38,122 bases of DNA from Planctomycetaceae bacterium. Its GTDB lineage: Bacteria > Planctomycetota > Planctomycetia > Pirellulales > Thermoguttaceae. Under the pieces are notes generated by a model. The model searched no databases and was not told where the DNA came from. It worked only from the letters and a program-made list of their open reading frames with translations. A program made the position numbers and the translations under genes. Location of the stretch: assembly GCA_031277105.1 (NCBI GenBank), contig JAISLW010000129.1:1-38122 (forward strand), read 5' to 3'. Positions 8,982 through 38,122 of the stretch are shown piece by piece (the first letter of the stretch is position 1; the number at the start of each line of letters is the position of its first letter).

Positions 8982-9006
8982 CGGTAACCGTTCACGGTAT
9001 TTTTTT
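8981..9006 (+). terminator. Candidate intrinsic terminator after the coiled-coil gene
   Basis: It begins at the last base of the stop codon. ACCGT-TC-ACGGT forms a short stem followed by a run of seven T (9000-9006). The stem is the recurring GTAACCGTTCACGG motif, so the terminator role may be incidental. Confidence 0.4.
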
Positions 9007-9054
9007 ATATTTTTGAATTTATTTGTAACTATTCAGTAGGTATATTTTTTTATT

Positions 9055-9557
9055 ATTTAATTTTTTCGTTGCTTTGTATTCGTCCCGATAGGGACGGTAT
9101 TTTCATAACCGCAGGTCGCTGACCTGCGGTTAAAAGTCAACACACAACTCTGCCCCGATAAGGGCAGTACGTTTTGCGTTAGGGCATCTCTAAAAATTCA
9201 TTTGTTTAGGTAGGCGGCTCAAAAAATTAAACACCGTGCCGAAACGCCGCATTAGAGTTTATGATACCAATAAATTTTATTATTTCACAACGTCTAAAAT
9301 ATGTCTATTTGACACGTTATGAATTATTGAAATTTATTGGTAGCATAAACTCCATTGCGGCCCAAAAAATAAACACAGCGGCGAAACATCGCCTACCTTT
9401 TTGCAAAAAAATGAGTTTTTAGAATTTCCCTAATGTCAATAAAGTCCTGCCCTTTCGGGGCAGCAAGATTGTGCGGCTTTTAACCGCAGGTCGCAGACCT
9501 GCGGTTATGAAAGTTACGCCCTTATCAGGGCGAATATTGATCGCCTACACATCAAAA
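9055..9557. repeat. Palindrome-of-palindromes element, copy 1, split by a MITE
   Basis: The left half holds three hairpins: GTCCCGATAGGGAC (about 9089), ACCGCAGGTCGCTGACCTGCGGT (about 9109-9132, 10-bp arms) and TGCCCCGATAAGGGCA (about 9152). The right half mirrors them in reverse order: CTGCCCTTTCGGGGCAG (about 9448), CGCAGGTCGCAGACCTGCG (about 9486-9504) and CGCCCTTATCAGGGCG (about 9520). Each half is roughly the reverse complement of the other. An uninterrupted direct copy lies at 37859-38122. No gene is present in the 890-bp gap it occupies. Confidence 0.85.
9182..9430. mobile_element. 249-bp MITE flanked by TA, nested in the palindromic element
   Basis: The left end GGGCATCTCTAAAAATTCAT and the right end, reverse complemented as GGGAAATTCTAAAAACTCAT, form terminal inverted repeats. 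Inner arms GTTTATGATACCAATAAATT and their near complement at about 9336-9355 extend the palindrome almost to the centre. Both sides carry TA (9180-9181 and 9431-9432). The uninterrupted sister element at about 37985 reads GCGTTAAATAATGTC, an apparent empty site. It has no coding capacity. The TA target suggests mobilisation by an IS630/Tc1-mariner-type transposase encoded elsewhere. Confidence 0.8.
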
Positions 9558-9659
9558 AACAAAGTAATCATAAAGATACTACTTAATAGTTACAATTTTT
9601 AAAAATAATTACGCATTAAAAAACATCCGCTAAATTTCCGTGAACGGTTACCAATAACG

Positions 9660-10786: not shown

Positions 10787-10849
10787 GTAACCGTTCGCGG
10801 ACAATTTTTTAGCCAATTGGGCGTCTCTAAAAATTCATTTGCTCAAGGG

Positions 10850-11325
10850 AACTTCTAAAAAACACAAATTTATTTTTATTAACCACAGAGAACACAGAGT
10901 TCACAGAGAAGAAAATTTTTAAAAACTATTTGTAACCGTTCACGTAAATTTAAGCAAAAGATTTTAGGGGATAGTGCATAGTGTGTATCGGGACAATTTT
11001 CGTAACAATAAATATTTGTCCCGTTAGGGACAACATGTTGGTAGAAAAAAATGATATGAATTTTTAGCGTCCCGTTAAGGACGCAATGACGGTTAAGGTT
11101 GTATTTACATGTTGTCCCTAGCGGGACAAATATATTTTTGACCTTGCTTTCTACCAACATGTTGTCCCTAGCGGGACAGGTAGGATAAATATTTATTGTT
11201 ACAATAAATCTATCCCCCTATCCCCTACACTTTAACCCCTAAAATCTAACGCTTAAAATTTCCGTGAACGGTTACAAAATTTCCTCTGTGGTTAATAAAA
11301 ATAAGATCTGCGTTTTTAGGTGTTT
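10850..11325. repeat. ~475-bp near-palindrome between convergent genes
   Basis: Left-arm modules, in order: TTCTAAAAAACAC, TTTATTTTTATTAACCACAG, TTTGTAACCGTTCACG, ATTTTAGGGGATAG, CGTAACAATAAATATTTGTC. These reappear as reverse complements in reverse order on the right (for example CTGTGGTTAATAAAAATAA at 11285-11303, CCGTGAACGGTTAC at 11262 and CCCCTAAAATC at 11236). Element E1 (11012-11178) occupies the centre. It could fold as a cruciform, or as a terminator-like RNA hairpin for both the 10492 gene (+) and the 11330 gene (minus), which converge here. A GGGCGTCTCTAAAAATTCAT fragment lies just outside, at 10819. Confidence 0.75.
11012..11178. repeat. Palindromic hairpin element E1, right (inverted) copy
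   Basis: Read in reverse complement it matches 48-215 almost throughout, including GTAGAAAGCAAGGTCAAAAA and the AACATGTAAATACAACCTTA block. A few substitutions and a short indel in the A-run distinguish the copies. Together the two copies bracket the six-gene + strand cluster. Confidence 0.85.
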
Positions 11326-11329
11326 GGAT

Positions 11330-13987
11330 TTATTGGTTTGGTGGATTTTTTGTTTTTAGTTTTTCTAGGAATGATTCTTTGAAGGTTTTTTTTGCGTTTA
11401 TTCCTCCGACGTCTGGCGTTTTGAATAATATTGGATCAGGTTTTACGTTGTTATTATGGAATTTTATTAACATTTTTATATTTTCTTTTTCAAGATTTTC
11501 CATTTTATCGCGTTTGTTTTGATAATAAGCATATTCGGCTTTTTGATTGTCATTCCATACATTCGCTTCCGTATATGAACCGCAATACGGCGCCGCTAAA
11601 TCAATCCAACACGCTAAAATTTCCATCTCCTTCGGCGATAACTTTACGTCGTTATGACCTTTCTCCAAAATTGAAATCAATTTACTTTTCGCCGAACCCG
11701 TATAATACTCATTCGACACTGCCGGAGAAGTCGGCGTACAAGGCAACAACATCGGAGGTATCGATTGAACATTCATCCAATTTACAATCTCATTAGGTCG
11801 CCCATTTTTAACAAGATTAATATACGCTTCGCTGAAATTACGTCCTGCGTTGTTGTACCGTTCTTTTGGCTTCGGCTCATAACGTTTTTCAAGCAGACTA
11901 AACGGCGCATTCGACCCGTCCGCCAACTTCTGCTCCGCTCCCTTATGACAACCCGCACAATTTTTACTCAAAATCGGCTGCACATCCAACGGAAAACTAA
12001 ACCCTCGATCTGCCGCAACCAACGGAACAGGTTTTTGCGGCGCCTTTCGTAACGCTAGTTTCGATACCGGCGTATCGCCGCCTCTGTTATACGGCGTCTC
12101 ATTTTTATTTTCATGGCAGCCGATACACGAAAATAATTCGCCAGGCTGCAACGTCGTCCAACTCCGCATCGTCTGGACAACCTTGCCCTTCTCATCTAGC
12201 ATCTGAAAATATAACGGCGTTCTCGCAGGTACTTCAAAAAACGCCGAACCGTCTTTTTCAACCGGAACATTGCCAATAACCCGCTTCACATCCCACGAAG
12301 CATTGTCAATCGAAATCGGCGTCGATACGTCCGCGCTGCCCGCAACGCCGCGATTGTTATTACCGCAAACCCCCGCCGCACGAAACTCCAACGCCACAAC
12401 ACGAATCGACTTAACAACGCCACGCTCAACTCCCTTTAACCCCGGCCCCTCATAAATATCCTGAACATAATATTGTCCCGTCTCCTTCGTATAATCCACA
12501 GCCGACGCCCGCAATACCGGCGTTTTACGCGACGCAAGCGGAATTTGTTGACTACACGAAATCGCTGGATCAAACGCTAACAACTCCCTGTTGCCGTCAA
12601 CATCAGTCAAATAAACCCCAAAAGGCGTAGTATAGTTATTCCGGTTTACGCCCTCCGGCAAATACGTAACAAGATAATGCGTCTCGTCAACCGGATAAGG
12701 ATACTGAAACTGATCGCCGCCTTGACCGTACTGATCAACTTTAACCGGTTTCGTTTCTTGCACCGGCGCTATTAGTTGAACGCCTTCGTTTTCCTGCGTT
12801 CCTTTGCTGCGGTCAATTATTATCAATTTACCCCGCTGATGCGTGTGATGCCCGCTCGCAACAGCAACCACTTTTTGCGAATTCGGAATCATACGCGCAT
12901 GTAAAATCGTCGTCGGAAACCATGAATTATTACCGTAAAATTCAGTTTGCGCCGTGCCGTCGTAATTCATTTGAAATAACGGTTGCGGATAAAGTTGACC
13001 GCGATCATTGTAATCCCATCGCGTATAAAGCACGCGACCGTCTTCTGTTACCGTCGGATAATTTGTATGAACTTGATCAAAACCAATACGCCGCATAAAA
13101 CGACCTTCGTTGTCCATAATATAAAAATTGCAAACTTCCGTCCACCAACAATCGACAATCTGCACGCAACGCGTCGATGCGAACAAAATATTACCATCCG
13201 GCAAATAACAAGGTTCTATATCGGCGAAGCCCGTACCATGCGTTAATTGCTTTATGTTTTTGGAGGCGACGTCGTATTCGTAAAGATGGAAATCGTCAGA
13301 TACGTCGTTGTGTCGCATTGAAAACAATATTTTTTTGCCGTCGTAAGAAATATCAGGGTCGCGCAAAATACCTGTTTTAGTCTCATGCAACGTATCAGAG
13401 GTAACAGTTCCGTCGGCGCTAATATTCAATAAACAAAGAGCGGCGCCGCAACGCCAATCGCGATTATGACGATTTTTTTCCGCCATTTGAGCGTCGGTAG
13501 CGTTTTCTGTATAAGCATAATGACTGCCGCCAAGTACGCAATGTTTAGTGTAAACAAGTTGCGGAAACTTCTGATGCAATATCGCAAGACGCTTGACGCG
13601 CCGCAAATTCGCCGCCTCCAAATAAAGAGTCTTCCATTGCGGATCGTTACCAGGCAATTTCTGATCTGATAGCTGTTGTAATTTAACGTCGAATTTTTTT
13701 GTTTCGTCTTTGGCGTTGAGTTTTTCAAGATCGTTGATAACTTTCTTGACAATTTTCGTTTCGGCATTGTTATTTTCGGACGAAGTAAAACAGTCCGAAA
13801 TTTTTAAGCCAAAATCTTGATACAGCCAATCGGCATGTAATCTTTCAATTGGAAATGCCGGTTGTTGTGCAAAAATGTTATTGCTTGTCGTCAGCCAAAA
13901 GATCGGCAATGCGAACAAGCAAAAATTAACCGCAACAGCGGCATGTTGAAATAAATTCAATTTAAGTTGGTTAAATATTTTTCTCAT
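11330..13987 (-). CDS. HzsA-related beta-propeller protein with two c-type haem sites
   Basis: The protein has 885 aa. The N-terminus has an export signal (hydrophobic AVAVNFCLFALPIFWLTT, then NIFAQQ), so it is probably periplasmic. Residues ~150-560 contain PD40/TolB-like propeller blades (PDISYDGKKILFSMRH, EPCYLPDGNILFASTR, YPTVTEDGRVLYTRWDY). Two haem-attachment motifs follow, C621-IGC-H625 and C677-AGC-H681. The end (GSAKSKLISILEKGHNDVKL, then ACWIDL.APYCG) is the conserved tail of Planctomycetota proteins related to the hydrazine synthase alpha subunit. Such proteins are widespread in non-anammox planctomycetes, and no hydrazine synthase beta/gamma genes are nearby, so hydrazine synthesis is not implied. 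The natural role is unknown; electron transfer or binding of a small molecule or polymer is possible. The ATG at 13987 puts the signal sequence right at the N-terminus. No operon partner is seen. Confidence 0.85.
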   Translation of the reverse strand: MRKIFNQLKLNLFQHAAVAVNFCLFALPIFWLTTSNNIFAQQPAFPIERLHADWLYQDFGLKISDCFTSSENNNAETKIVKKVINDLEKLNAKDETKKFDVKLQQLSDQKLPGNDPQWKTLYLEAANLRRVKRLAILHQKFPQLVYTKHCVLGGSHYAYTENATDAQMAEKNRHNRDWRCGAALCLLNISADGTVTSDTLHETKTGILRDPDISYDGKKILFSMRHNDVSDDFHLYEYDVASKNIKQLTHGTGFADIEPCYLPDGNILFASTRCVQIVDCWWTEVCNFYIMDNEGRFMRRIGFDQVHTNYPTVTEDGRVLYTRWDYNDRGQLYPQPLFQMNYDGTAQTEFYGNNSWFPTTILHARMIPNSQKVVAVASGHHTHQRGKLIIIDRSKGTQENEGVQLIAPVQETKPVKVDQYGQGGDQFQYPYPVDETHYLVTYLPEGVNRNNYTTPFGVYLTDVDGNRELLAFDPAISCSQQIPLASRKTPVLRASAVDYTKETGQYYVQDIYEGPGLKGVERGVVKSIRVVALEFRAAGVCGNNNRGVAGSADVSTPISIDNASWDVKRVIGNVPVEKDGSAFFEVPARTPLYFQMLDEKGKVVQTMRSWTTLQPGELFSCIGCHENKNETPYNRGGDTPVSKLALRKAPQKPVPLVAADRGFSFPLDVQPILSKNCAGCHKGAEQKLADGSNAPFSLLEKRYEPKPKERYNNAGRNFSEAYINLVKNGRPNEIVNWMNVQSIPPMLLPCTPTSPAVSNEYYTGSAKSKLISILEKGHNDVKLSPKEMEILACWIDLAAPYCGSYTEANVWNDNQKAEYAYYQNKRDKMENLEKENIKMLIKFHNNNVKPDPILFKTPDVGGINAKKTFKESFLEKLKTKNPPNQ

Positions 13988-14217: not shown

Positions 14218-14450
14218 TCAAAAATGTTTGCTAAACGATTTTGATTTTCTCTGATATTCTAATATATATCGTCCAGAACGGATAAATAACGTAATCAAAA
14301 AAAACAGAAACAACAAAAGACAAATAACAAACGCATTGTAGCCAACGATAAATAAACATACAATCCCCCCTAAAATTTCGGAATACGAAATTATTTTTGG
14401 GAACTGTTCACGGAATTTTTTTATTAAATTACGTTTTGGCAATTTGAGGA
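14218..14450 (-). pseudogene. Possible remnant of a small membrane protein
   Basis: On the minus strand an open frame ends at 14218 and encodes two adjoining hydrophobic stretches (ILGGIVCLFIVGYNAFVICL and LLFLFFLITLFI) followed by a basic tail (RYILEYQRKSKSFSKHF). Upstream it runs into repeat-derived sequence. The only ATG of the frame (14568) lies inside the GTCTCGCC repeat, and no ribosome binding site is seen. It may be the tail of a gene destroyed by repeat insertion, or chance in AT-rich DNA. Low confidence. Confidence 0.2.
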
Positions 14451-14479
14451 ACAAGTGAAACGATTTTTTGTTACAAAAA

Positions 14480-14735
14480 ATCGAGAAGGAACCCAGACGA
14501 AATGCCTGCGATCCTGAAGTGCAGGCGATCCTGAAATACCTGCGATCCTGAAGTGCAGGCGAGACCACCGGATCGCGGGCGTCTCGCCTGCAATTTGCCG
14601 CAAGGCAAACAAAAAGGCTGTTGAGATATAACCTCGCTCACCAGCGGTTGAGTACAACCGCCTGCAGGCGAGACGCCCGCGATCCTTCGGTCTCGCCTGC
14701 ATTTCAAGATCGCAGACGAGACATCCGTGTTCCTT
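14480..14735. repeat. Cluster of GTCTCGCC-type palindromic repeats, right copy
   Basis: It contains CGGATCGCGGGCGTCTCGCC, then ACCTCGCTCACCAGCGGTTG, then the reverse-complement unit, bounded on both sides by TTTTTTGTTACAAAAAATC and GAGAAGGAAC-type blocks. It is an inverted counterpart of 244-512. It lies between the divergently transcribed HzsA-related and rhamnosidase genes. Confidence 0.8.
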
Positions 14736-14781
14736 CTCGATTTTTTGTTACAAAAAATCTGTTATCTAGTTTTTTCAAAAC

Positions 14782-24067: not shown

Positions 24068-27000
24068 TTAATAGCTGCGGTTATATCCGATATTTACGGC
24101 GTGTGCTTTTGATCTGTTTCCTCTTTCGAAGACGTAATCTAGGAATATTTGGCTTTGTTTTTTGTTTGTCAAGTAGTATCTGCTTCCGACTCCTAGTGTG
24201 GCGAAATCTCTTCCTGCTTTTATACCTTTTAGGTTTGCGGGCGTGATATTTGCGCCTGGTATTGACATATTTGTTGCGATGGTATCATTTCCTCCGATTT
24301 GTCTGCTGTACCATGATTGTGTTTCTAGTCTGAATCTGTCGTTAATTTTCCATAGCGAGTTTAATCCTGCTCGGAACATGATTTGGTCGATGGCGGCGCT
24401 TTTAATGTGTGTTTTGAAGTAATCGTTTTCGTCGAATGAATTGGTGTGAGCGTAACGTGCATCGACGGCGACGGCGGGCATGAATGCGATACCTGGTCGC
24501 CAATGTATTGGTCGGACGAGTTCTATGTTCCAAAATGCGGAATCGCCGTCGTATTCTGTTTTGGAGTAGCCGTAGGCGTGGGCGTAAGTGGCGGCGTCGA
24601 TGTTTTGCAGGGCGTAACGTTTGCTATCGTATTTTTGAGTTCCGAATCCGATGTAGGTATTGAGTTGTATTTCGTTGATGAATTGGTATTGTAAGTAAAT
24701 GCCGAAGATGAGGTTTTCCATTTCGATTTTATTTCCGTTTTGTGGTTGTGATAATTTTGCGTTTCCTGTTGCGAGTAGTATTCCGGCGAGTAGTGCGTTT
24801 CCGTATTGTTTATCGGCGCCGATATTGAAGCCGGAGGTATTTGTTTCTATATTTTGTGCGTTTCCGTCGCTTTTCATTTCTAGGTTATGGTTATTGATTG
24901 AGAACCATATATCTCTTTTTGCGTTACGCGGCGCTCCGCGTAGGACGGAGTAATTGTAACTATAATTATCGACGTCTTGAACTGAGAAAAAGTGATTTGA
25001 TATTGCGTTGAACGGGTTTGACAGCGCCATGTATTTTGCTTCGGAGTGTACGGCGGCGTTGGACAAAGTTGAGAATACTTCGAGTAATTGGTCGTCGTTT
25101 AGGTTCATTAGGCTTTTTTCAAATTCAGGTTGTTCCCAATGGTTAAAAACGTTTGAGAAGTAGTTTGCCAGTGTTGTGTTATTGGCGTTGAAGTTGTGTA
25201 ATTTTGCGTAATCGTTAAGTGAAACTGCGGAGTAAACCAAGTCCATTGCGTTGGCGGCGGCGTTAAATTCGACGCGGCGGTTCCATAATCCGGCGGTCTG
25301 TTCAAATTTTGATTTTAGGTTTTCTTGCGTTTGTGCGTCGAATGGTTTATCGGTTACGGCGATTAAGTTGTCGAAACGCGGTTTATTTGTTTGCGACGGT
25401 TCGGGTTCGTTTATGAATTTAACGTTTCCTTGAATATCGACTGTTGCGGCTCTGATTAGGTTACTGGCGGGTTCGATTATTAGGGTTGCGGTGTTTGCTA
25501 CTTTGAATGTTTTTTCGGCGTGGAACGCTTTATGATTTTTCAGCGTAACTTTTGCGGCGTTTAAAATTTCGATATTACCTTCGGTGTAGAGGTTATTTTC
25601 GAATGTAACGTTTCCGGCTGCGATTTTAACGTCGCCGTTCATGGTAGTTTTTTGACCCGACTGATCGATGAAGTCTGCGGCGACGCCGAAGAAGTCGCCT
25701 CCTGCGAATGTATAATTTCCGCCGCTGATAAGCAAGCCTGAAAAAGTGCGGGCGCCTTCTTTGATACCGGTAATTTTTACGCCGCTAGCGTCGTAAATTG
25801 GTTTACCGAGAATAATTTTATCGTCGTTTGCATCGATTTTGCCGTCTTGGTTAATATCGAGGTTAAGGTTAAATCCGTTTTGTTTTCCTTTTTCGTTGAA
25901 TATGAGGTAATCGGAGTGGTTAAAGTTTTCGTCGTTACCTTTATCGTCGAGCCAATTCCCTTTGGCTGATGTAGTCAAAAATCCGTTAGCGTCGCTTGAC
26001 CAAACGATACGTCTTCGATCTGCCGCGTTCATTGAAATATCAACTCGCAAAGTCGTATAATCATCAATTAGCGTGCCTTCGCTGCCGTATTGTCCGGAGC
26101 CGAAAAGCAACTTCGCATTCTGCCTACTCCCAGTAACATCGCCCCCCAATTCCAAATTAAACCGCTCCAAAATATCAGGCGGGAATGAATCCGTGCCTAA
26201 ACCCACGTTATCCGCAACTCCTTCGCTTTTTAATACGGTAAATAATCCCGTATTCCATGCGTTAATATTGATCGTGTTATTTTCAAGTACGCCAAGATCA
26301 GTAATATTGTAAACGCCGTCTTTGCTAGCGTAATTAAAGCCGGCGTAATGTGCGAGTAAAACTTGATCTGAAACATTGCCTTTCTTTACGTCGATGTTGA
26401 AGGTCGTATTTTTTATGTCAATGAGATAAACTAAATGATTCGCATTGTCGGCGGTTGGATCGGTGGAATAATCGGCTGTTGCGTCTAGCGTAATTTTTCC
26501 GATTAAGTTTTCGTTGCCGATGATTGAGGACGTTGTTGTGAATTTTTCGTTATCGGGGCTAACTTCTGCGCCGTTTAGTTCGATATAGTAAGCGCCGATG
26601 GTTCCGTTTCCTGCGATTTTACCGTTTTCGTTTACTATCATGTAGCCTCTGCCGCAAAATTCATAAACAGGTTGACCTGCGTCTGTAGTGAATTTTTCTT
26701 TAGCGCCGATACCTACTTTACTTTCTTTGCCGTTGGCGCCGACGCCGCCCGCTAAGCGTAACGTGCCGGAATTAACGTAAAAGTGAGTTCCGCGTCCTAA
26801 TTCGGCGCTGGTAAATTGTACGAATGCGTTTGGATTATCGGCGAAGTTTATTTCAAAGTAATTTTCTCCCGACGCTTGTACTAATTCGGTTGGGTCATTT
26901 GGATTAGCGTAGTATGCGATTGTTACGGGATCGATTATATCGACGCCGTTTCCGTTTTTGCCGCCTTCAAATTTAACAATATTATCGACGCCGACTAATG

Positions 27001-30000
27001 TTATTCCGTTTTGTCCTGTTTTATCGAAGTTGTTGAAAATTTTAATTGCGCCATCGGTGGTATCGAATATTAGTTGAGCGGCGTCTTCGAGGTAGATAGC
27101 GCCGCCGTAGCCGGAGAGCGTTTCGAGCGGTTTGGATAAGGGCGTTAAACTTCCGGCGTCAACGGTTGGGATTTGTTCGATGTAGTAGTGGCTTGTGTTT
27201 CCGGTGATGATTGTATTTCCGCCTATTGTTAATTTACCGCCGTCTGTAACTGATATAGCGGCGCCGTTGGCGGTAGATTTCACGCCGGAAATTGTGAACG
27301 TTTCGCCGTTGTTGACTTTGATAGTCAACTCTGCGCCAGGATCGACTACGATGCGGTTTGTTGCGTTGACGGAAGCATCGACTTTGATAAAGTTATTAGC
27401 GCCGATGGCGGTAATACGTCCGGCGGAGTTAGGTTCGTTTTGGTAAGTTTCTTGATATTTGCCGAATGCGTCTTGAACGCCGTAAATGATTGTGCCTCCG
27501 CCGCCGCTGGCGCCGTGATTTTCGAGTATTATTCCGTATTGGTTAAAGATGGGAACGTTTGTGTAAAGCGAGCCGCCGCTGTGAACGTAAATTTTACCGT
27601 TAGCGGTCAAACCGGCGAATTTGGAATTGGCGACTATATTTATTTGACCGATATTGTCGCGAGTTATTGAGCGTAATTCAAAATCTTTATCATAAACTTC
27701 AAGTCCGCCTAGAAGCATTTTATCGGAAGTTACCGTAAATATTTCTTGCGGAGTATCGTTGTTTAGCACGATCAAATTATCTGATTTAATATTATCTATT
27801 GACCAGTCGTCGCCGTCTTTCCATTCGATTACGTTACCGAATGGCGTATCGGATCGCAATTGAAGTATTAGTTTCTTTTGTCCTATTACCGCAAGCGCTA
27901 CGTTAGCGGCGCTTGCGAGTTCGTATTCGTCGTTTTCGCTGTTTACGCTAACATAATCCAGTTCGATCTCTTCGTCGATATTTACGTCAATATAGTGAAG
28001 ACTGGCGCCGTGATATTTTATAATCCATGAATCGTCGACTTGGCTGATGCGGTTATTTGCGCCGTTGACTTCCATTATTACGTATTTTGCGGGACCGATC
28101 CAATCGTCTAGTTTGATAGTATTGATTTGCATTTCGTCGTTTCCGAATGATATGTTTCCGTTGACGACGATTTTATCGGCGACTACTTTACCGTTGCCAT
28201 TCTCTGCGATATCGATATGAAATTCCGCGTCGTAAAAGACGAGATTTCCGTTGAAGGTCAAAGTTCCGACGTGTCGTAAAGCGTCGTTTTTATTTCCGAC
28301 GCTGCGGTCGTCCGGCGCTAGTACGGCGCTATCGGGGCTAATTATGCCGACGATTTCGGTTGTTCCTGCGGTGATTATGCCGTTGCCCGCAAGCGCCGCT
28401 TTATTGCCAATAAATAGTTTATTCGTTTTGCCAAGATCAATTGAACTCGTTACATCATCGTAATCGTTAGCGAGACGTAAAATTCCGCTTTCGGCTGTTA
28501 TGTTTCCGTGCGTGATATTTACGCCGCGAAGTTGAACGAAACTATCAGTATTTTTAAAATTAACTAACAACGCCGCCGAATCTTTCCAAACTTCTAATTC
28601 CTTAACCTGGTTTGGATCATTCGGGTCAATTATCGTTTCAAAAATATCTGGATTGATTGCGCGAATCGGATCGTCTAAAAATACGTGGAATATGTAGTCG
28701 CCTACATAACCTGGATCTTTGATAACATTTTTGATATGTTCGCCGGTAAATTTGATTAAGTTTTGGTTTCTGAATGAAATTGCGAGCGGTTTCTCTTCGC
28801 CGCTAACCGGATCAATATAATGATTACCTCGTAATACGACGTCGCCGTCTGATGTATCGAAATGGAGAACGTTTTGAATTGACGCATAAAATTCATTGTC
28901 AATTGCGTCAATTATATTTTGATAGTCGGGATTGGTGGTAGGAGTGTTCTTAACAACGGCGTTGTAATATGCGTCGTTAAAATGGCTATTGAGGTGAATA
29001 GCGCCGTAGGGGCGACCTTGATCATCGACGGGCGCGAGGTTATTTAGGAATGACAAATTACCTTTGATGTTTAGTTCGGACGACGAGCCTGCGAAAATTA
29101 CGCCTGCGTAAACTTCGTTCCATTCTAAATTGAAAAATTCGGCGTTGTTGTAAGGTCCGGTTTGATCGTGGTATTTGAATGATTTGTTGGGATAGGCGTT
29201 TGTATTGTTATATTTTTCTTGTCTTGCTTGTAGGTCCCATCTTGCTTTTTGGCTTGCGGCGTCGCCGTTGTTTCCTTCGATAGTCCATTTTGCGCCGTCT
29301 GCGCCTGCTGCTAGCGTTAAATTGTAAGTTATTTGATTTAATACTTCGTAATTGTAAGGCGGTTCGTAATAGACGCCGGACGAATTGGGATCGTTTGGAT
29401 TTGCGCGTGTAGGATCGGACGGGTCAAACGGGGCGCCGAAATCGATTAGTTCCGGCGCAACATAAAACCAGTTATTTGTCGCTAGTTGTTTTTTGTCGGC
29501 AGTTTTAATTAAAGTTGTGCGTTGTACCGGAACAGGCGCATCGTATAAATAATCGTATAAATAATAATCGTCTTCATCGTTGCTAGCTAGATTTTTTGGC
29601 AAGTCGTAGAAATAGACCATACCGCTTTGATCGTTTCTATCGCTAGCAATTCGCAACTCGGATAATAAATCCATCGGGCTTTCGTGAGTTACAATTGGAT
29701 TAGCGCCGGTAGGATTAGCGTTTTCTTGTAAATTATGATTGTTAATTGCGGCGGCAACGGCTTTGTAACTATCGGGATCAAAATCTGCGTCTTCTAGCGT
29801 ATTGGTTAGTTTTCCTAGCGCGTTATTTACGCCGAGTATTATTGTTCCGGTATCGTGAATTTGCGTGCCTTTTTCAAAACTTGTTGAGACGTGAAATTCG
29901 GTAAAACTTTGTTTAGTTGGCGTGTCAATATTTAATCTTCCGCTTACGGTTTGTCCGTTGTTGTCTATTAGCCATGCGTCGTCGTAAGTCAACGAGGTAG

Positions 30001-33000
30001 TTACGCCGAATTTATCATTCCATTCATCATAAACATAATTGTTATTATTTGTGTTATACGTATCGTTTAGTGTTCTTATTTTTTTGCGTAATAATTTTCC
30101 GGTAATGATGTTTTCGTTTTCCATGTCGAATTCTTTTTCGGCGCCTTCTCTTACGAAGGACTGCCAACCTCCCATTATTAGCATACCGGAGACTTGTACT
30201 TTGTTGTTTATTGTGATGCTGCTGCGGTCAAGTCCGATGCCGTCAAATATGACGTAATCGTTTGGATTATATTTTTCTATATCAGTAGTCCAGTACCATC
30301 TCCAATTAGCGTCGGTCGTGTTCCATTGGTTATTGGATTTAACGCCAGTCCAAAGTAAATCCTTATTACCGTAAGCCGTATTCGCTACAAGAATAAGACG
30401 ATTATAAGTACCGCCGACTGTATCATCGTTGCCTAAATTCTTTTGATATTTATTACCCGCATAATCAATCGCCTCGACAACATCTTTAACGTCGTTTTCA
30501 ACGTATAAATATGCGACTTGACGCGAGCCGAGCGGCAAACCTGCAACTGTTACTTCGATACCAAACTCGCTTGATATTGGCGCTAATAACGTAGTGGCAG
30601 TATTTCCGCTAATATCTTTGAACCAGTTAATATCTAATTTACCGTCGTCTTTGTAAGACCGCATTAGTTCAAACGTGCCTTCAACCCAGTTATTCAACTC
30701 GACTACAATTTTTCGATTAGGCGCCGTAATATCGCCCGTGATTATAATATCGTCTGATTGTTTAAATTCTAAATCAATTCGCGGTAACAATTTTGAGTTT
30801 ACATCGTCTGTATAAACTGTTTTTTTGTATTCGTTGATGGCGTGGGTGTTGAATAATTCTTTTGTCTTATCGAGTAGTTTTGGCATTTCTTCCAAAACGT
30901 ATTCGTCTGCCAAATCGACTTTATATTTTATTTGATTATTTTTATAAATTGGAATAGGATTACCTTCTCCGTCAAGAATTAGATTATTACTTTCGTCTTT
31001 CTTATATCCGATTATTCCGAAATTGAATTTAACGTCTGCGTCGAAAGTGAGTTTTCCGATGGCTTTGTAGTATGATTGCGGTTTACTGTTTGGGTTTGTG
31101 ATTCCGATGGAGGGGTTTGATCTTGCGTATGTAACCGTGTTGCGTCCGGGCGTCGCGCCCGCAAAACCTACGCCGCCTGGTATCTCAAATTTGTCATTGT
31201 CAGGCGAAATCAAAATATTATTTAAATATCCAGCATCGCCAATATTAATATTAGTCGCTTTAAATTTACCTTGACCGGAAAGTATAATATCGCCCGCTTC
31301 TAATTTAGTAGGATTTCCTGGCATTATTGTAGTAGTGGGTTTTCCGAAATTGATATCGCCGTTAGTTGTAAACGATGATAATAACGACGGATGACTTCCG
31401 GCTAAACGAAACGTACCCGCATAAATATCAACATTGCCTAGAGTAGCCGCATTGTAAGGATTCAAAATATTTTCGCCGACAAATTGCACGAATCCGGAGC
31501 CTGCTTTGCTCAACGTGTTACCGCCATCGGAAGAAGGAAGTATAGGATTAGCGGCGGCGGGATCATATTTATAACTTGCAATCGGGTCGTCGAAATAGAT
31601 GTTTCGTTCTCCGGTTAAAAATATATTTATGCCTGTTTCGAGGAATAGCGAGTTTGGCGTTGAGTTACTTCCTTTAACTTTGCTTTTATTATTTGCGAAG
31701 GCAATATCACCGGTTGCGGCGCTTGCGTTGAGTACGACGTAACCGTCTTTGGTAATATAAGCGGCGCCGCCGTCGCCTAGCGATTCGTTGTCGATAAAAC
31801 TTGTATTACCTGCGGCAATTAAGAAGTTACCGTAAAAAGCGCCGCCGTTACCATAATCAGCGCCGCCGATACCGACGCGGTTATTTAAAAAACTCGTATT
31901 AGAAGCATCTATTTTAGCGGCGTCATTAAAATCATAATTAAGTATTGTCGAATAACTTAAATTTTTATATCCAATAACGAGCCAATCGCTATAAATAGCG
32001 CCGCCGTATTCTTTGGCAAAATTACTAGAAAACTGGTTGCTGCCGGACAATATTACTTGACCAGGATTAGTAGCCGGTCTACCATCAGAGTCAATATAAA
32101 TAGCGCCGCCGGAGCCGTTATTTGCTTTATTGCCGATAAAATTTGAACTAATTTTATTGAAATTTCCGGCTGCAATGTTGAGATTATAATTCGTGTAAAT
32201 AGCGCCTCCGCCGCCGTTCACGTTTGCGTCAATATCACTTTGAAAATCTGACTCGTTACCTGTAAATATTAGATATTCGTTAGATTGGTATGATGTAGTT
32301 GGTAATAAATTCCAAGTCAGACCTGATGTAGGATTTACCACGTAAAGGGCGCCGCCGTTTCTGCCGGCTATATTACCGTTGAAGGTAACTCGACCGGATT
32401 GAAAATCGAATGTAGGCGTAAAAATAGCGCCGCCGTTGCTAGCTGCCGTATTACCGCTAAAATTCATCGCCGCTCCGGCTATTATTACTTTTCTAGCATA
32501 AATAGCGCCGCCGCCAGTTGTCAAACCAGGCGTACCGTCCGCATGATTGCCGACAAATTCTATTGATTTACCACTATTACCTGTAAATGTTAAATCATTA
32601 TTCCCAGCCCAAATAGCGCCGCCGTTATTGCCCGCAATATTATTTTCAAATAAAAACGTAGTATAGTAAGAATCGAAAACTAAACTATTAGTCAAATACA
32701 TACCGCCGCCATTATTATCCGCCTCATTATTCGACAATATAAAATTACGAAGACTATTCATGCCCGTAATCGTCCCGCCGTTAATATAAATAGCGCCGCC
32801 GTCGCCGTCATTGGAATAAGATAGTACGGGATAAGGCGCTATCATACTCTTAATATCGTATAACTGGCGTGCTTTGCTGTTATTATTACGCATTGCAAAA
32901 TCACGATTAGAAGTCATAAAATCTAAATTGCTGCCATTTCGTAAATCTATCGCGCTACCGCCGCCGCGAACATTTTCTATCGTCAACTTCGAAACAAAAT

Positions 33001-36000
33001 ATGTTCCAGTATTAGCATCAGTTCGAATATAAATCCGAAAGTCATTATCTGTACCGCTCGCATAAAATCTATTAGAGATCGCTACATCATCGTGACCGTG
33101 ATTATAATAGATTTCAATGTGAGGTCTGGTTACATCAGGATCAGACAATATTTGTACTACGCCTTTAGTCAATGTAGCGCCGCCATAAGAACCAAGCGCA
33201 AAATCATCGCCGTTACGTAATATAATTGTACTATCTTGCAATTTAATACCGCCGCGAAATTCATTGTTACCTGCAAGTCTAATCCTAGAATTTGTAACCT
33301 GTAATTGACCTGAATAATTATTATTCGTTTCAGTAAGCGTAGTCTTTGTACCGTCCGCTAATATATTGCCAACAAACGTAGGTATCCAAAACGGATCACT
33401 ACCTGACTGTTGTATATTCCTCACTACCATCTCGGCAACCGTCTTGCCGTTACCGCCAATAATAATTTGAAAGTTAGCGGGATTCCTGCCATCAACAGCT
33501 CCAATATTATTAGCCCAAAACCACGCATCAGTAATATTATAATCAAATATAACCGCATCGCCGTCAAGAAATCGTCCAGTGCCTGCATTCGCTATTTGTT
33601 GCGCAGTTGCTCCATAAAGTGGATCTAAAGGATTGGTAGGGTCGCCTTCATACGTTCCCATCCAGTTTTTAACAGTTAAATTCCAATTCAAGTTTGCGCC
33701 TTCAGCGGCATAAACAGTAAGGCTAGCATCTGAATCTGTATAACCTCTCCAAGTCAAAACATGGTTTTCATAGACGAGATTGTTAAGAGTAATTTCGAGG
33801 GCGTTAGCTGTGATATGACCATAAATTGAATCGCCAGTTTTACCAATATCTGGATGACCAAAAAAATTCCATATATCAGTTCTTCTAACACGGCTTGTCC
33901 ACCAACCCTGAAAAGCATCGTTTGCCCAAACAGGTTCAATTGGAATTACTTCACCGTTCAAACGAAACGACCAGCCCCAATTGTTCATTTGCTCATAATC
34001 CAAAATGTTGCGTGCTGAAGCATAAGTATTACTTGCTGTAGGTAAATTGGTAAGAAAATTTCCTGAACCGGTTATTTGTAAAATTGTGCTACTACTAATA
34101 GATGATGGTATTGCTTGAATCAAGCTTGTTAAATCGACGGTAATAGCGCCGCCTATTCTAACATCAGCATAAGCATACACGGTGTAGCCGGAAAGCCCTG
34201 CGCTATCAGTAACATTAACTCGGTCAGACGAATTGGCTGTAGTAGCTTTATCCCTTAAATCGACGCGGAAGTATGGCGAGGGTCCCAAGTCGAGTTGTCC
34301 GGCAAAAGTCAATGTTCCTACTTCGCCTTTATAATCTCCGGCATATATAACGCTTTTACCTTCTAAAATAGTTCTATAACCTGGACCAACTAGATTCCCA
34401 TCTTTGTCTCTTCTTGCGTTCGCTCGGATTGTTCCGTTCCCGCCGATTAAACCGTCAATTGTAGAGAAGGCTTCCGTAGACCTTATTATACCTCCACTTA
34501 ATACTAACAATTTGCTGCCGTTTGTATAAGCGGTTGTAAATTCATCGTAAGGATTTGTTTCAACGACAAAATGATTAAGTCCTACGCCATCGACGACGGC
34601 AGTGTTCGTCATTCCTACTTGACCGCCTATTCTTGCAAAACCTATTGTTCCTACTGTAATGGTTCCGGCTTCGCCTCTTGTATTTTCGACGGCGTTAAAA
34701 TAACCGTTTACGATATTCATGTTTCCGCCGTGTAAATTATATTTACCTCCGAAAATATTTACTCTACCGTAGCTATTTGCCGAACCGATAGTAACGCCGA
34801 AAGCGCCGTTGCCGTCAATTTTGCTATTTAGTAAGTTTAAAATTCCATCGTTGTAATATTCATTACCGCTAACGCCGACGTATAAATTCGCCCCGTTGTT
34901 AAAATTTAAACTGCTTCTGTCAACTTCGCCTACATTTGTACCTCTCGGTATTTTTTCGAGGCTATTTACGAGATTAACTTCGCTAGCGTTGTTGATCAAT
35001 AATCCCTTTTTCGTAGGCTCTGATACTACAGATTCTTCTTCCTCCCCTTCGCCTTCGCCTCCGCCTTCGCCCTCTCCTTCGCCTTCTTCTTCCTCTGTAG
35101 CAGCAGTAATAGGCGCGTGCGTCAGTGTAATTGAGCTCTCTTCGGAGGCATTCAAACGCGCATATTGCGTAAGGTCTATATTTCCGCTAGTAACATTAGC
35201 GCCGGATAAATTCATCGTCGCATACGAATGATAATTTGTGTAGAAATTAGAACTGATGTAGTGATGCGAAGTCAAGTCGATTGATCCGGTAACGTCGGCG
35301 CTACTTCCGCGCGCGAGATTAAAAACTGAATTAGCGCCGCGTATATCGATAATATGAGACCGAACCTTCGACCCCGCGCCCGCAACATTCAATACAGGAA
35401 GTACGTAAGTATTATCATGAGGATTTCTACTAATATCAAGATAATAGCTATGAATGTTAATATTATTTGTCGCCGCAAAACCAGCCTGATCTGAAACGTT
35501 GACAAGTGCAACAGTATTACCGTTTGTTGCGTTGCCAATATTCGCCGTTCCCGTATGCAACCACGTATCTTTCCCCGCAACATTTGTCAAACTCAAAGCG
35601 CCGGTTGTCCCTAAAGTTTGGGCGTATGCTGAAGTTGCGTGTAATAAATTTATCCTGCCCGTATCACCTGATAAAGCAACATTGAGTCTATCCCGAATAC
35701 TAAGATTCGATTGCAAACTCGTTACAGTCGAATTGTCCTCTATATACATTAAATTCGCCACAACATTCCCGCCGCTGTAAAGCGACAAAGAATGCGTATT
35801 ATTAACATCTATCAACGAAGCCTCCAACGCCCCGCCATTAGAAACAGCAATCGTACCATTTAACCCTACCGATCCGTGCGCTTTTAAAGTGGCGCCCGAA
35901 CCTGCAATCGTGATTGTACTTTGTCCGCCGCTAATATTAAGCGATCCGATTTCCGCCCGCCCGCCGTCAAGCAGATTCAATATCCCAAAACTACCAGACA

Positions 36001-37474
36001 CGCTGCCTAATGTTAAATCTGCGTATGAAATTGTCGGTCCAGTCGTACCAATATCTTGCGTTGTTAAAATCGATCCGGCGCCGACGACATTTATAATTCC
36101 TTTCGATCCGGCTTCTGTAGCGACTCTCACGTCTTCCGTAAATTGGGCAGTTGCGCCGTATGAAATATCCAACGAACTTGTCGATAAAGTAAAATAATCA
36201 CCGCCGCCGCTAACAATACCTTCCATCAACAATCCCCCAGCCGTCAACGCCGAACCCTTGCCATCAACAAGAACCCTACCAACCGTATCGGTTTTAGTAG
36301 TCCCGTCATACCCCTTGCCAATAAATAAATCATGATAAGTCGTAGTATATTCATAATCGCTTGAATAATAAAATCCAGTATAAGAAGGAGATTCATAAGT
36401 ATATGAAGCAATAGTAGCCAAACCGCCATTGGAAATAGTAAACAATGCGTCTTGAGTAATAACATTATCGCCCCATTGACCCGCATTGCCAACATAAAGA
36501 TTCCCCGCATGCTTCCACTCCGTCCGGTAATCATTGCCAATAACCGCATTAAAACGAGTCGTCATGTTAAAATAATTATCATACGTATCGGTAAAAGAAT
36601 AATCATAAGAATAATAATGATAAGAATAATCACGATCAGAATAATACCCATAAGGAGTAACACCCTGTGAAATATATACATCTGTGGTAATAGAATAAGA
36701 ATCGCCGCCACTGGTTAAAGATGTATTCCTTTCTATTGAATATGGATTTGTACCGTCGTCTATAGTTCCAGAATCAAATGTACTCTCAAATAATATCGGC
36801 ATACCTGTTTCCAAAATTCCGCCCTTAACAATAATGCCGCCTGGGAAAGTCGATGTTCCGTTAGGAATGCCGTTTGTATCTATAGTCCGAACATCGTTAG
36901 TCATATTGTGCAACCGGATCGTTCCTTTACCGGATTTAATAAATTGTCGATTTAACGTGTCGCCTTGAGTGGGATAAGTGAAATCAGACTTAACCGTTAT
37001 CGCCGGTCCTGCCGTCAAATTGCCCGTAGCAGAATCAAAATTATACGTCTGATAATTATAATCATTCATAATAAACGTAACGCGATCCGTTGGCGGCATT
37101 GATGGCGGGGATGAGTAGTCAATTGTATTTGGTAGTTTAATTGGCGATAGCGGATTTATGAACCAATCGCCTTGCGGATTAAGTTTAATACTAGGTTGTG
37201 GAAAATATGCCGCATTGTCCTCAATCAGAAACCTGCCCGTAAGATCCGGATAAAATCCCCGCAACTCATAAGGCACGCCATTAAGACGAGGATACGTAAT
37301 ATATACCTCGCCTGCAGAATACTTAACTATCCCAAACAAAATAATTATTATAGTCAACAGCGCAATAATCGACCGCAGCAAGATGTAAAGCCTCTTACCT
37401 GATTTCATTTTCAAATTCCATTTGTCAGGGTTCTGTCTGTTTTGCATTTTAGCCCTTGTTGTCAAATATTTCAC
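24068..37474 (-). CDS. Giant autotransporter adhesin with Pmp-like repeats
   Basis: The gene encodes 4468 codons in one unbroken frame. The N-terminus has a long signal region (KSGKRLYILLRSIIALLTII, then LFGIVKYSAGE). The first codon of the frame (37474) is GTG, and ATGs at 37447 and 37408 are alternatives; 37408 gives the most typical signal peptide. The passenger is Gly/Asn/Thr-rich beta-helix sequence (GSLNISGGQSTITIAGSGAT). Residues ~1555-1920 hold a run of chlamydia-type Pmp motifs, GGAIY-like (GGAIYINGG, NNGGGMY, NNGGAIW, NGGAIF, NGGALY) alternating with F..N (FSGN, FNGN). Unusual segments are Tyr-rich stretches at about 275-390, a Glu/Gly tract at about 795-815 and a dockerin/EF-hand-like DINQDGKIDANDD at about 3870. 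The last ~280 residues form an autotransporter beta-barrel ending in an aromatic residue (NIGYNRSY). The product is predicted to be surface-displayed and to mediate adhesion. Confidence 0.9.
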   Translation of the reverse strand: MKYLTTRAKMQNRQNPDKWNLKMKSGKRLYILLRSIIALLTIIIILFGIVKYSAGEVYITYPRLNGVPYELRGFYPDLTGRFLIEDNAAYFPQPSIKLNPQGDWFINPLSPIKLPNTIDYSSPPSMPPTDRVTFIMNDYNYQTYNFDSATGNLTAGPAITVKSDFTYPTQGDTLNRQFIKSGKGTIRLHNMTNDVRTIDTNGIPNGTSTFPGGIIVKGGILETGMPILFESTFDSGTIDDGTNPYSIERNTSLTSGGDSYSITTDVYISQGVTPYGYYSDRDYSYHYYSYDYSFTDTYDNYFNMTTRFNAVIGNDYRTEWKHAGNLYVGNAGQWGDNVITQDALFTISNGGLATIASYTYESPSYTGFYYSSDYEYTTTYHDLFIGKGYDGTTKTDTVGRVLVDGKGSALTAGGLLMEGIVSGGGDYFTLSTSSLDISYGATAQFTEDVRVATEAGSKGIINVVGAGSILTTQDIGTTGPTISYADLTLGSVSGSFGILNLLDGGRAEIGSLNISGGQSTITIAGSGATLKAHGSVGLNGTIAVSNGGALEASLIDVNNTHSLSLYSGGNVVANLMYIEDNSTVTSLQSNLSIRDRLNVALSGDTGRINLLHATSAYAQTLGTTGALSLTNVAGKDTWLHTGTANIGNATNGNTVALVNVSDQAGFAATNNINIHSYYLDISRNPHDNTYVLPVLNVAGAGSKVRSHIIDIRGANSVFNLARGSSADVTGSIDLTSHHYISSNFYTNYHSYATMNLSGANVTSGNIDLTQYARLNASEESSITLTHAPITAATEEEEGEGEGEGGGEGEGEEEESVVSEPTKKGLLINNASEVNLVNSLEKIPRGTNVGEVDRSSLNFNNGANLYVGVSGNEYYNDGILNLLNSKIDGNGAFGVTIGSANSYGRVNIFGGKYNLHGGNMNIVNGYFNAVENTRGEAGTITVGTIGFARIGGQVGMTNTAVVDGVGLNHFVVETNPYDEFTTAYTNGSKLLVLSGGIIRSTEAFSTIDGLIGGNGTIRANARRDKDGNLVGPGYRTILEGKSVIYAGDYKGEVGTLTFAGQLDLGPSPYFRVDLRDKATTANSSDRVNVTDSAGLSGYTVYAYADVRIGGAITVDLTSLIQAIPSSISSSTILQITGSGNFLTNLPTASNTYASARNILDYEQMNNWGWSFRLNGEVIPIEPVWANDAFQGWWTSRVRRTDIWNFFGHPDIGKTGDSIYGHITANALEITLNNLVYENHVLTWRGYTDSDASLTVYAAEGANLNWNLTVKNWMGTYEGDPTNPLDPLYGATAQQIANAGTGRFLDGDAVIFDYNITDAWFWANNIGAVDGRNPANFQIIIGGNGKTVAEMVVRNIQQSGSDPFWIPTFVGNILADGTKTTLTETNNNYSGQLQVTNSRIRLAGNNEFRGGIKLQDSTIILRNGDDFALGSYGGATLTKGVVQILSDPDVTRPHIEIYYNHGHDDVAISNRFYASGTDNDFRIYIRTDANTGTYFVSKLTIENVRGGGSAIDLRNGSNLDFMTSNRDFAMRNNNSKARQLYDIKSMIAPYPVLSYSNDGDGGAIYINGGTITGMNSLRNFILSNNEADNNGGGMYLTNSLVFDSYYTTFLFENNIAGNNGGAIWAGNNDLTFTGNSGKSIEFVGNHADGTPGLTTGGGAIYARKVIIAGAAMNFSGNTAASNGGAIFTPTFDFQSGRVTFNGNIAGRNGGALYVVNPTSGLTWNLLPTTSYQSNEYLIFTGNESDFQSDIDANVNGGGGAIYTNYNLNIAAGNFNKISSNFIGNKANNGSGGAIYIDSDGRPATNPGQVILSGSNQFSSNFAKEYGGAIYSDWLVIGYKNLSYSTILNYDFNDAAKIDASNTSFLNNRVGIGGADYGNGGAFYGNFLIAAGNTSFIDNESLGDGGAAYITKDGYVVLNASAATGDIAFANNKSKVKGSNSTPNSLFLETGINIFLTGERNIYFDDPIASYKYDPAAANPILPSSDGGNTLSKAGSGFVQFVGENILNPYNAATLGNVDIYAGTFRLAGSHPSLLSSFTTNGDINFGKPTTTIMPGNPTKLEAGDIILSGQGKFKATNINIGDAGYLNNILISPDNDKFEIPGGVGFAGATPGRNTVTYARSNPSIGITNPNSKPQSYYKAIGKLTFDADVKFNFGIIGYKKDESNNLILDGEGNPIPIYKNNQIKYKVDLADEYVLEEMPKLLDKTKELFNTHAINEYKKTVYTDDVNSKLLPRIDLEFKQSDDIIITGDITAPNRKIVVELNNWVEGTFELMRSYKDDGKLDINWFKDISGNTATTLLAPISSEFGIEVTVAGLPLGSRQVAYLYVENDVKDVVEAIDYAGNKYQKNLGNDDTVGGTYNRLILVANTAYGNKDLLWTGVKSNNQWNTTDANWRWYWTTDIEKYNPNDYVIFDGIGLDRSSITINNKVQVSGMLIMGGWQSFVREGAEKEFDMENENIITGKLLRKKIRTLNDTYNTNNNNYVYDEWNDKFGVTTSLTYDDAWLIDNNGQTVSGRLNIDTPTKQSFTEFHVSTSFEKGTQIHDTGTIILGVNNALGKLTNTLEDADFDPDSYKAVAAAINNHNLQENANPTGANPIVTHESPMDLLSELRIASDRNDQSGMVYFYDLPKNLASNDEDDYYLYDYLYDAPVPVQRTTLIKTADKKQLATNNWFYVAPELIDFGAPFDPSDPTRANPNDPNSSGVYYEPPYNYEVLNQITYNLTLAAGADGAKWTIEGNNGDAASQKARWDLQARQEKYNNTNAYPNKSFKYHDQTGPYNNAEFFNLEWNEVYAGVIFAGSSSELNIKGNLSFLNNLAPVDDQGRPYGAIHLNSHFNDAYYNAVVKNTPTTNPDYQNIIDAIDNEFYASIQNVLHFDTSDGDVVLRGNHYIDPVSGEEKPLAISFRNQNLIKFTGEHIKNVIKDPGYVGDYIFHVFLDDPIRAINPDIFETIIDPNDPNQVKELEVWKDSAALLVNFKNTDSFVQLRGVNITHGNITAESGILRLANDYDDVTSSIDLGKTNKLFIGNKAALAGNGIITAGTTEIVGIISPDSAVLAPDDRSVGNKNDALRHVGTLTFNGNLVFYDAEFHIDIAENGNGKVVADKIVVNGNISFGNDEMQINTIKLDDWIGPAKYVIMEVNGANNRISQVDDSWIIKYHGASLHYIDVNIDEEIELDYVSVNSENDEYELASAANVALAVIGQKKLILQLRSDTPFGNVIEWKDGDDWSIDNIKSDNLIVLNNDTPQEIFTVTSDKMLLGGLEVYDKDFELRSITRDNIGQINIVANSKFAGLTANGKIYVHSGGSLYTNVPIFNQYGIILENHGASGGGGTIIYGVQDAFGKYQETYQNEPNSAGRITAIGANNFIKVDASVNATNRIVVDPGAELTIKVNNGETFTISGVKSTANGAAISVTDGGKLTIGGNTIITGNTSHYYIEQIPTVDAGSLTPLSKPLETLSGYGGAIYLEDAAQLIFDTTDGAIKIFNNFDKTGQNGITLVGVDNIVKFEGGKNGNGVDIIDPVTIAYYANPNDPTELVQASGENYFEINFADNPNAFVQFTSAELGRGTHFYVNSGTLRLAGGVGANGKESKVGIGAKEKFTTDAGQPVYEFCGRGYMIVNENGKIAGNGTIGAYYIELNGAEVSPDNEKFTTTSSIIGNENLIGKITLDATADYSTDPTADNANHLVYLIDIKNTTFNIDVKKGNVSDQVLLAHYAGFNYASKDGVYNITDLGVLENNTININAWNTGLFTVLKSEGVADNVGLGTDSFPPDILERFNLELGGDVTGSRQNAKLLFGSGQYGSEGTLIDDYTTLRVDISMNAADRRRIVWSSDANGFLTTSAKGNWLDDKGNDENFNHSDYLIFNEKGKQNGFNLNLDINQDGKIDANDDKIILGKPIYDASGVKITGIKEGARTFSGLLISGGNYTFAGGDFFGVAADFIDQSGQKTTMNGDVKIAAGNVTFENNLYTEGNIEILNAAKVTLKNHKAFHAEKTFKVANTATLIIEPASNLIRAATVDIQGNVKFINEPEPSQTNKPRFDNLIAVTDKPFDAQTQENLKSKFEQTAGLWNRRVEFNAAANAMDLVYSAVSLNDYAKLHNFNANNTTLANYFSNVFNHWEQPEFEKSLMNLNDDQLLEVFSTLSNAAVHSEAKYMALSNPFNAISNHFFSVQDVDNYSYNYSVLRGAPRNAKRDIWFSINNHNLEMKSDGNAQNIETNTSGFNIGADKQYGNALLAGILLATGNAKLSQPQNGNKIEMENLIFGIYLQYQFINEIQLNTYIGFGTQKYDSKRYALQNIDAATYAHAYGYSKTEYDGDSAFWNIELVRPIHWRPGIAFMPAVAVDARYAHTNSFDENDYFKTHIKSAAIDQIMFRAGLNSLWKINDRFRLETQSWYSRQIGGNDTIATNMSIPGANITPANLKGIKAGRDFATLGVGSRYYLTNKKQSQIFLDYVFERGNRSKAHAVNIGYNRSY

Positions 37475-37858
<384 letters not shown>

Positions 37859-38122
37859 TTATTTAATGTATGTTTTCGTTGTTTTGTCTTCGTCCCGATA
37901 GGGACGGAATTTTCATAACCGCAGGTCTTTGACCTGCGGTTAAAAATCCATACAAAACTCTGCCCCGCTAGGGGCAGGACTTTTTGCGTTAAATAATGTC
38001 AATAAAGTCCTGCCCTTTCAGGGCAGAAATTATGTGCGGCTTTTTACCGCAGGTCGCAGACCTGCGGTTATGAAAGTTACGCCCTTATCAGGGCGAAGAT
38101 TTGATCAATCACACATCAAAAA
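37859..38122. repeat. Palindrome-of-palindromes element, copy 2 (uninterrupted)
   Basis: It has the same order of hairpins as copy 1 at 9055-9557: GTCCCGATAGGGAC, CGCAGGTCTTTGACCTGCGG, TGCCCCGCTAGGGGCAGGAC, then CCTGCCCTTTCAGGGCAG, CGCAGGTCGCAGACCTGCGG and CGCCCTTATCAGGGCG. The short centre GCGTTAAATAATGTC has no MITE. It runs to the window edge and may continue beyond. Confidence 0.85.

Follow-up and report, generated by a model that had tools for sequence, protein, structure and literature searches.

Organization of the window

The window (the whole stretch of DNA analysed, 38,122 nt) is the entire contig C47 of a 5.19-Mb draft genome in 553 contigs. It contains a short palindromic element flanked by the two halves of a longer palindromic repeat, here called the host repeat, a second copy of which is unbroken (Table 1). 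A reading of the sequence alone had proposed that this is a MITE lodged at the midpoint of a second palindromic repeat, and the junctions, the predicted fold and the 1416 matches to its ends elsewhere in the genome confirm the nested arrangement. As DNA the element folds at -50.8 kcal/mol, compared with -22.4 ± 3.4 kcal/mol for shuffled versions (z -8.3), and none of 200 shuffles folds as well. It is short and gene-less, with inverted ends and many dispersed copies, as expected of a MITE. In an alignment of 62 copies of 195–260 bp, window copy included, it is 87.6% identical to the resulting 241-bp family consensus. Its two ends are of different types, so that it is a hybrid within its own family. 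Read across the insertion, host repeat copy 1 runs GCGTTA (9176–9181), element, TAATGTC (from 9431); to the left of the element AATAAT, made up of a TAAT copy and two further bases, is missing.

Table 1. Positions of the MITE, its host repeat and related features in the window.
Feature	Position	Strand	Remarks
MITE	9182..9430	+	249 bp; palindrome; no ORF of at least 100 aa
Left terminal inverted repeat, type 1	9182..9203	+	GGGCATCTCTAAAAATTCATTT
Right terminal inverted repeat, type 2 variant	9409..9430	-	Minus strand reads GGGAAATTCTAAAAACTCATTT
TAAT, surviving copy of the 4-bp target duplication	9431..9434	+	Right junction as at C280 and C523
Host palindromic repeat copy 1, left half	9053..9181	+	Direct and inverted repeat search
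Host palindromic repeat copy 1, right half	9431..9538	+	Direct and inverted repeat search
Further type-1 end and type-2 end	10819..10861	+	Type 1 at 10819; type 2, GGGAACTTCTAAAAA, starts 28 bases on, at 10847
Host palindromic repeat copy 2, unbroken	37863..38101	+	Repeat search, sequence comparison
TAAT, empty 4-bp target site in the middle of copy 2	37994..37997	+	Second-best position for the target consensus

Further inverted arms (GGTAACCGTTCACGG ... CCGTGAACGGTTACC) enclose host repeat copy 1 at 8983–9652, roughly concentric with the MITE. Two large ORFs, both on the minus strand, are found elsewhere in the window: one of 4468 aa (24068–37474) with a match to Chlamydia polymorphic-membrane-protein repeats (PF02415, E 7.5e-9), and one of 885 aa (11330–13987) whose single domain match is to the hydrazine synthase alpha middle domain (PF18582, E 7e-36), a putative assignment. 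The window has no Rfam match at gathering scores.

Abundance of the family

The 20-base end of the MITE, which the earlier reading had suggested searching for, has 1416 matches in the genome with at most three mismatches, against one for the reversed control. Individual copies were examined in a sample of 121 of the 553 contigs (C1–C121; 1,101,824 of 5,194,260 bases), the contig numbering being assumed to be arbitrary; C10, C15, C25, C28, C56, C60, C75, and C79 are represented by 20 kb each. There are 418 ends in the sample, 186 of which form 93 inward-facing pairs of 60–400 bp. Most paired copies are 200–249 bp long, with a short class of about 80–110 bp, and 89 of the 93 are inserted outside ORFs of at least 90 aa, although only 28% of the sample lies outside such ORFs. 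The 1416 ends would correspond to about 700 elements if every end were paired, while scaling up the 93 pairs by the sampled fraction of the genome gives about 440. The family is ordinary in kind and unusual in abundance. The genome-wide BLAST searches covered 40 of 1157, 40 of 149, and 40 of 760 candidates.

A second family, mostly 189–201 bp long with ends GGTAACTTCTAAAAACCAC / GGCAACTTCTAATAACCAG, was also seen (L127:5304–5501, L125:3173–3369, L153:6299–6497, and others); with the end pattern GG[TGC]AACTTCTAA, 14 of 27 copies have 4-bp duplications, where 1.6 are expected. Nested palindromes recur as well. GTCCC...GGGAC hairpins lie within a type-1 MITE end, itself within a GCAGGCGTCTCGCCTGC palindrome, at 20–235, 327–507, 10994–11150, and 14450–14740 in the window and at L151:5657–5865, L063:9025, and L071:17930. 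These nests are partly in the same order, as if they spread as one unit.

Target duplications

Duplications were counted in 90 of the 93 pairs, three at contig edges having been dropped. Matching 4-mers flank 27 of the 90, compared with 2.8 after shuffling, and none of 1000 shuffles reaches 27. Repeats of 2 bp are at the chance level (10 of 90, 11.8 expected), and lengths of 3 and 5–8 bp are at or near it. Empty sites corresponding to duplicated copies, found in other copies of the interrupted repeats (for example L067, L115, and L149), hold a single 4-mer. The family thus duplicates 4 bp of target, and the window copy retains one side of the duplication.

The sequence-only reading had taken TA as the target, in the manner of a Tc1/mariner (IS630-type) MITE, and the window copy taken singly does read TA, element, TA. 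Across the family the flanking dinucleotides are mixed, with TA at 16 of 91 ends, and boundaries elsewhere do not coincide with TA, the observation which that reading had itself named as counting against it. Since 4-bp duplications are far above chance and 2-bp duplications are not, the TA interpretation is wrong for the family. It also fits the window poorly, as a TA duplication at the centre of copy 2 would make copy 1 four bases longer than it is, and it does not account for the doubled TAAT at the identical host site in C280 or for the IS5-family transposase found with similar ends (both described below). We consider a Tc1/mariner origin extremely improbable. The case illustrates how one copy with a small loss in its flank can point to the wrong transposon superfamily.

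The host repeat and its reused site

The centre of host repeat copy 2 (37986–38000) reads GCGTTAAATAATGTC, without an insertion. Among the 30 loci that best match copy 2 (L081–L110), most have an unbroken centre of equal length; some centres are shorter by 1–2 bases, and base variants occur in several. Copy 2 is therefore the usual state of the repeat, and the uninterrupted copy that had been pointed out in the window does exist, although it does not correspond exactly to the state before a TA-duplicating insertion. No element end precedes 40 of 46 distinct right-arm centres (in five of these 40 the left arm differs); as the 46 come mostly from loci retrieved through host-repeat or junction searches, the six occupied centres give a biased estimate of occupation. 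The repeat is also found in tandem on C45, C55, and C260 (L094, L101, L104, and L106), at spacings of, for example, 128 and 266 bp. Two PF01797 (Y1/REP transposase) matches were detected, and a possible link with the host palindrome was considered.

A search for the right junction gave 26 matches in the genome, against two in the control. The same site of the host palindrome is occupied on C47 (the window), C280, C452, C446, C505, and C523. On C280 the element is in the opposite orientation, GCGTTAAATAAT / element / TAATGTC, and TAAT is intact on both sides. C523 reads GCGTTAAATAAA / element / TAAAGTC, so that TAAA, which is known from a variant of the host repeat, flanks the element on either side. 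The right junctions on C505, C452, and C446 are as in the window; C505 is at a contig edge, the left flanks on C452 and C446 are not host repeat, and the C446 element is a 109-bp short form. The window element is 90% identical to that on C523 and 81% identical to that on C280, and the window and C523 elements could stem from one origin. Because orientation and size class differ among these copies, at least two independent insertions at this site are counted, and probably three.

Why the centre of the palindrome should be used repeatedly is best answered by its sequence. The 27 duplicated sites give the target consensus AAATAAC-AATT-GTTATTT, which was symmetrised, so that part of its palindromy comes from that step; in 20 of the 27 a pyrimidine precedes the 4-mer and a purine follows it. 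The host centre ranks second of 217 palindrome-core positions for this consensus and is among the best-scoring 1.1% of the positions sampled. Insertion at the centre is thus attributed to the fit of an A/T-rich target consensus there. A preference for hairpin loops, as the sequence-only reading had suggested, would instead have the transposase recognise hairpin or cruciform centres. The insertions in the window, on C280 and C523 and in others do share a dyad centre, and the stem score at insertion sites is slightly raised over 61 copies (4.71 vs. 4.45, p 0.049). This shift comes from the 43 copies without a duplication (p 0.009), however, and is absent from the 18 with one (4.17 vs. 4.38, p 0.73). 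Strong stems (score of at least 8) are not in excess (6.6% vs. 5.1%), and when 86 copies, aligned flank to flank, were compared with 3000 random intergenic points, six were at dyad centres where 6.9 are expected. Given that the sequence consensus already selects the host centre, recognition of hairpins appears very unlikely; no enrichment in hairpin loops or dyad centres was found, and hairpins are at most weakly preferred.

A candidate parent element

An intact ORF for a DDE transposase of 351 aa is present on C191 (3579–4631, minus strand). It scores 242.6 bits against NF033581 (IS5 family; cut-off 140) and is also above the cut-off for PF01609; among solved structures it has no match at E ≤ 0.01. 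The left end of this insertion sequence is GGGCGTCTCTAAAAATT, and the contig ends before the other. The other IS copies are partial, with ends of this kind. In that on C326 one end is GGGCGTCTCTAAAAATT and the far end GGGTATCTCTAAAAATTCATTT, the latter being the commonest end on the right side of the MITE; this copy is itself broken by a MITE (L172:1748–1982). At the IS ends on C191, C326, C418, and others the first ~17 bases are as in the MITE, these being the only end bases that the intact C191 element has in common with it, and the right ends on C326 and C12 share more. A transposon with related ends is therefore present in the genome, as had been anticipated, but it belongs to the IS5 family and not to IS630/Tc1. 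The IS630 parent was dropped on the strength of this find. The MITE is likely derived from this IS5-family insertion sequence, judging from the similar ends, which would also allow its transposase to move the MITE.

A common left-right polarity of IS and MITE was considered as proof of descent and proved weak. The right ends of the IS are mixed (GGGTA on C326 and C12; GGGCG on C418, C60, C449, C245, and C249; GGACG on C28), the five GGGCG copies having this, not GGGTA, at the end where the transposase starts.

Related transposases in other bacteria were examined at 15 loci, six of which have clear ends, five of these being GGNNACCTCTAAAAA. Five of the six are flanked by a 4-bp repeat (TTAT, TAAA, ATAA, TGAA, or TTAA); L188 has none. 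Within the genus, 10 of 20 other genomes have transposase matches (E ≤ 1e-20) and 15 of 20 have the MITE end pattern, with from 1 to 306 matches. Among 39 more distant genomes the end pattern is found in eight, with 13 matches in G028 and one in each of the other seven, and transposase matches are confined to G028. This genome represents another genus of the same family; its transposase matches number 14, and most of its ends are of a variant peculiar to it, GGGAATCTCTAAAAACTCTT. Among named genomes, the best transposase matches are to MAGs titled Planctomycetaceae bacterium. Six of the eight genomes behind such loci have the end pattern (13 to 306 matches), and the counts for these six, with the listed places too for two of them, coincide with those of surveyed genomes (for example, the L174 genome and same-genus G015). 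A planctomycete is therefore the likely source of the window. The isolate names of these MAGs resemble those used in termite-gut projects.

Copies with mismatched flanks

The remaining 63 of the 90 copies, including that in the window, have no matching 4-bp repeat. Half-site signals were counted in the 66 pairs without a visible duplication, at the 127 ends for which all 30 flanking bases were available. C is found at position -5 in 52 of the 127, nearly as often as at duplicated ends (24 of 54) and well above the 16% background, and G in three, against a background of 17%. One-sided loss would be expected to leave less C and more G than this (p 0.007 and 0.004, respectively), which suggests exchange of flanks between copies or joins made in assembly. 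Point mutation of duplications was rejected as the main cause; matches at three of four positions (10, vs. 13.3 shuffled) are not in excess. Age appears to play some part, since copies without a duplication are further from the consensus (85.3% identity, n=45) than those with one (88.4%, n=16; p 0.019), and the direct repeats of MITEs are described in PMC10969869 as waning over time. As a check on assembly chimerism, none of 79 elements shares a 119-mer with elsewhere in the sample, but this would follow by construction from assembly with words of that length and so has no bearing on the question. It is a tentative suggestion, with the odds somewhat against it, that the flanks of most copies come from different insertion events and that ectopic exchange among hundreds of MITEs has reshuffled the chromosome. 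If assembly error is not responsible, this would amount to rearrangement on a large scale. Given long reads, the surplus of copies with mismatched flanks could become a measure of MITE-mediated rearrangement.

Origin of the window copy

Taken together, the explanation that we consider highly probable is that of an IS5-related MITE which duplicates 4 bp at A/T-rich sites, and entered the host repeat at TAAT, with a later loss of six bases on its left. The MITE would be a non-coding relative of the IS5-family insertion sequence, moved by the DDE transposase of the latter through similar ends, GGG[CT][AG]TCTCTAAAAATT. Transposition would generate 4-bp duplications at sites resembling the consensus, one of which is formed by the centre of an abundant and unrelated palindromic repeat, where MITEs could accordingly land more than once. 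In the window, loss of AATAAT beside the left end after insertion would leave the arrangement GCGTTA / element / TAATGTC, which mimics an insertion at TA.

A chimera is the main competitor: the halves of the element would come from two insertions, at GTTA and at TAAT, joined by recombination between MITEs or in assembly. The mixed end types speak for it, and hybrid copies like that in the window have no duplications (0 of 11), compared with 27 of 79 others (Fisher p 0.030); the half-site counts given above likewise suggest that, in the family as a whole, flanks have been exchanged rather than lost on one side. The left junction, however, is found at five places with at most three mismatches, and the four outside the window are not in host repeat (one of them reads GCGTTA / GGGCG). 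Both flanks of the window copy belong to a single position within one repeat, for which a small loss is the simpler explanation. The target score of the left flank does not separate the two: it is poor in the window (-0.98), but the left flank of the intact C280 insertion is as poor (-0.62). We regard a chimeric origin of this copy as rather unlikely, and prefer insertion at TAAT followed by the six-base loss.

Comparison with known elements

Like the IS5 family, the present system has a transposase above the NF033581 cut-off, ends starting with GG, and a 4-bp duplication in five of the six related IS whose ends are clear. It differs in that the MITE is gene-less and that its duplicated 4-mer is A/T-rich, without a CTAG-like core; IS5 itself has such a core in its target. 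The IS630/Tc1-mariner MITEs (e.g., Nezha) follow a TA target rule. The present element resembles the Nezha-like ones in being short and palindromic and, in the window copy only, flanked by TA, but its family duplicates 4 bp and the transposase found is of the IS5 family.

Some IS are reported to be specific for REP palindromes (PMC1525189). The likeness to that account is of a mobile element recurring at a particular point within an extragenic palindrome; the insertions described here differ in occupying many sites, and the centre that they reuse fits an A/T-rich consensus. No paper on the element at 9182–9430 was noticed in a literature search that included PMC3733652, PMC4853749, PMC10969869, and PMC1525189.

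Close counterparts are also the prokaryotic MITEs (Correia, ERIC, Chunjie, and QMITE; PMC10969869), which are likewise under 500 bp, intergenic, and hairpin-forming, with inverted ends and many copies. A high case among them is ERIC, with 711 copies in Photorhabdus luminescens (PMC10969869); the 1416 end matches here, if all were paired, would bring this family near that figure. The nested insertion is real and well resolved and belongs to a known kind. It represents a MITE family that is heavily amplified and probably has an IS5-type parent, and for which the 4-bp duplication is resolved and a target consensus and a landing site reused within another repeat are at hand. Of most interest to a specialist are its abundance, that reused site, and the mismatched flanks of its copies.
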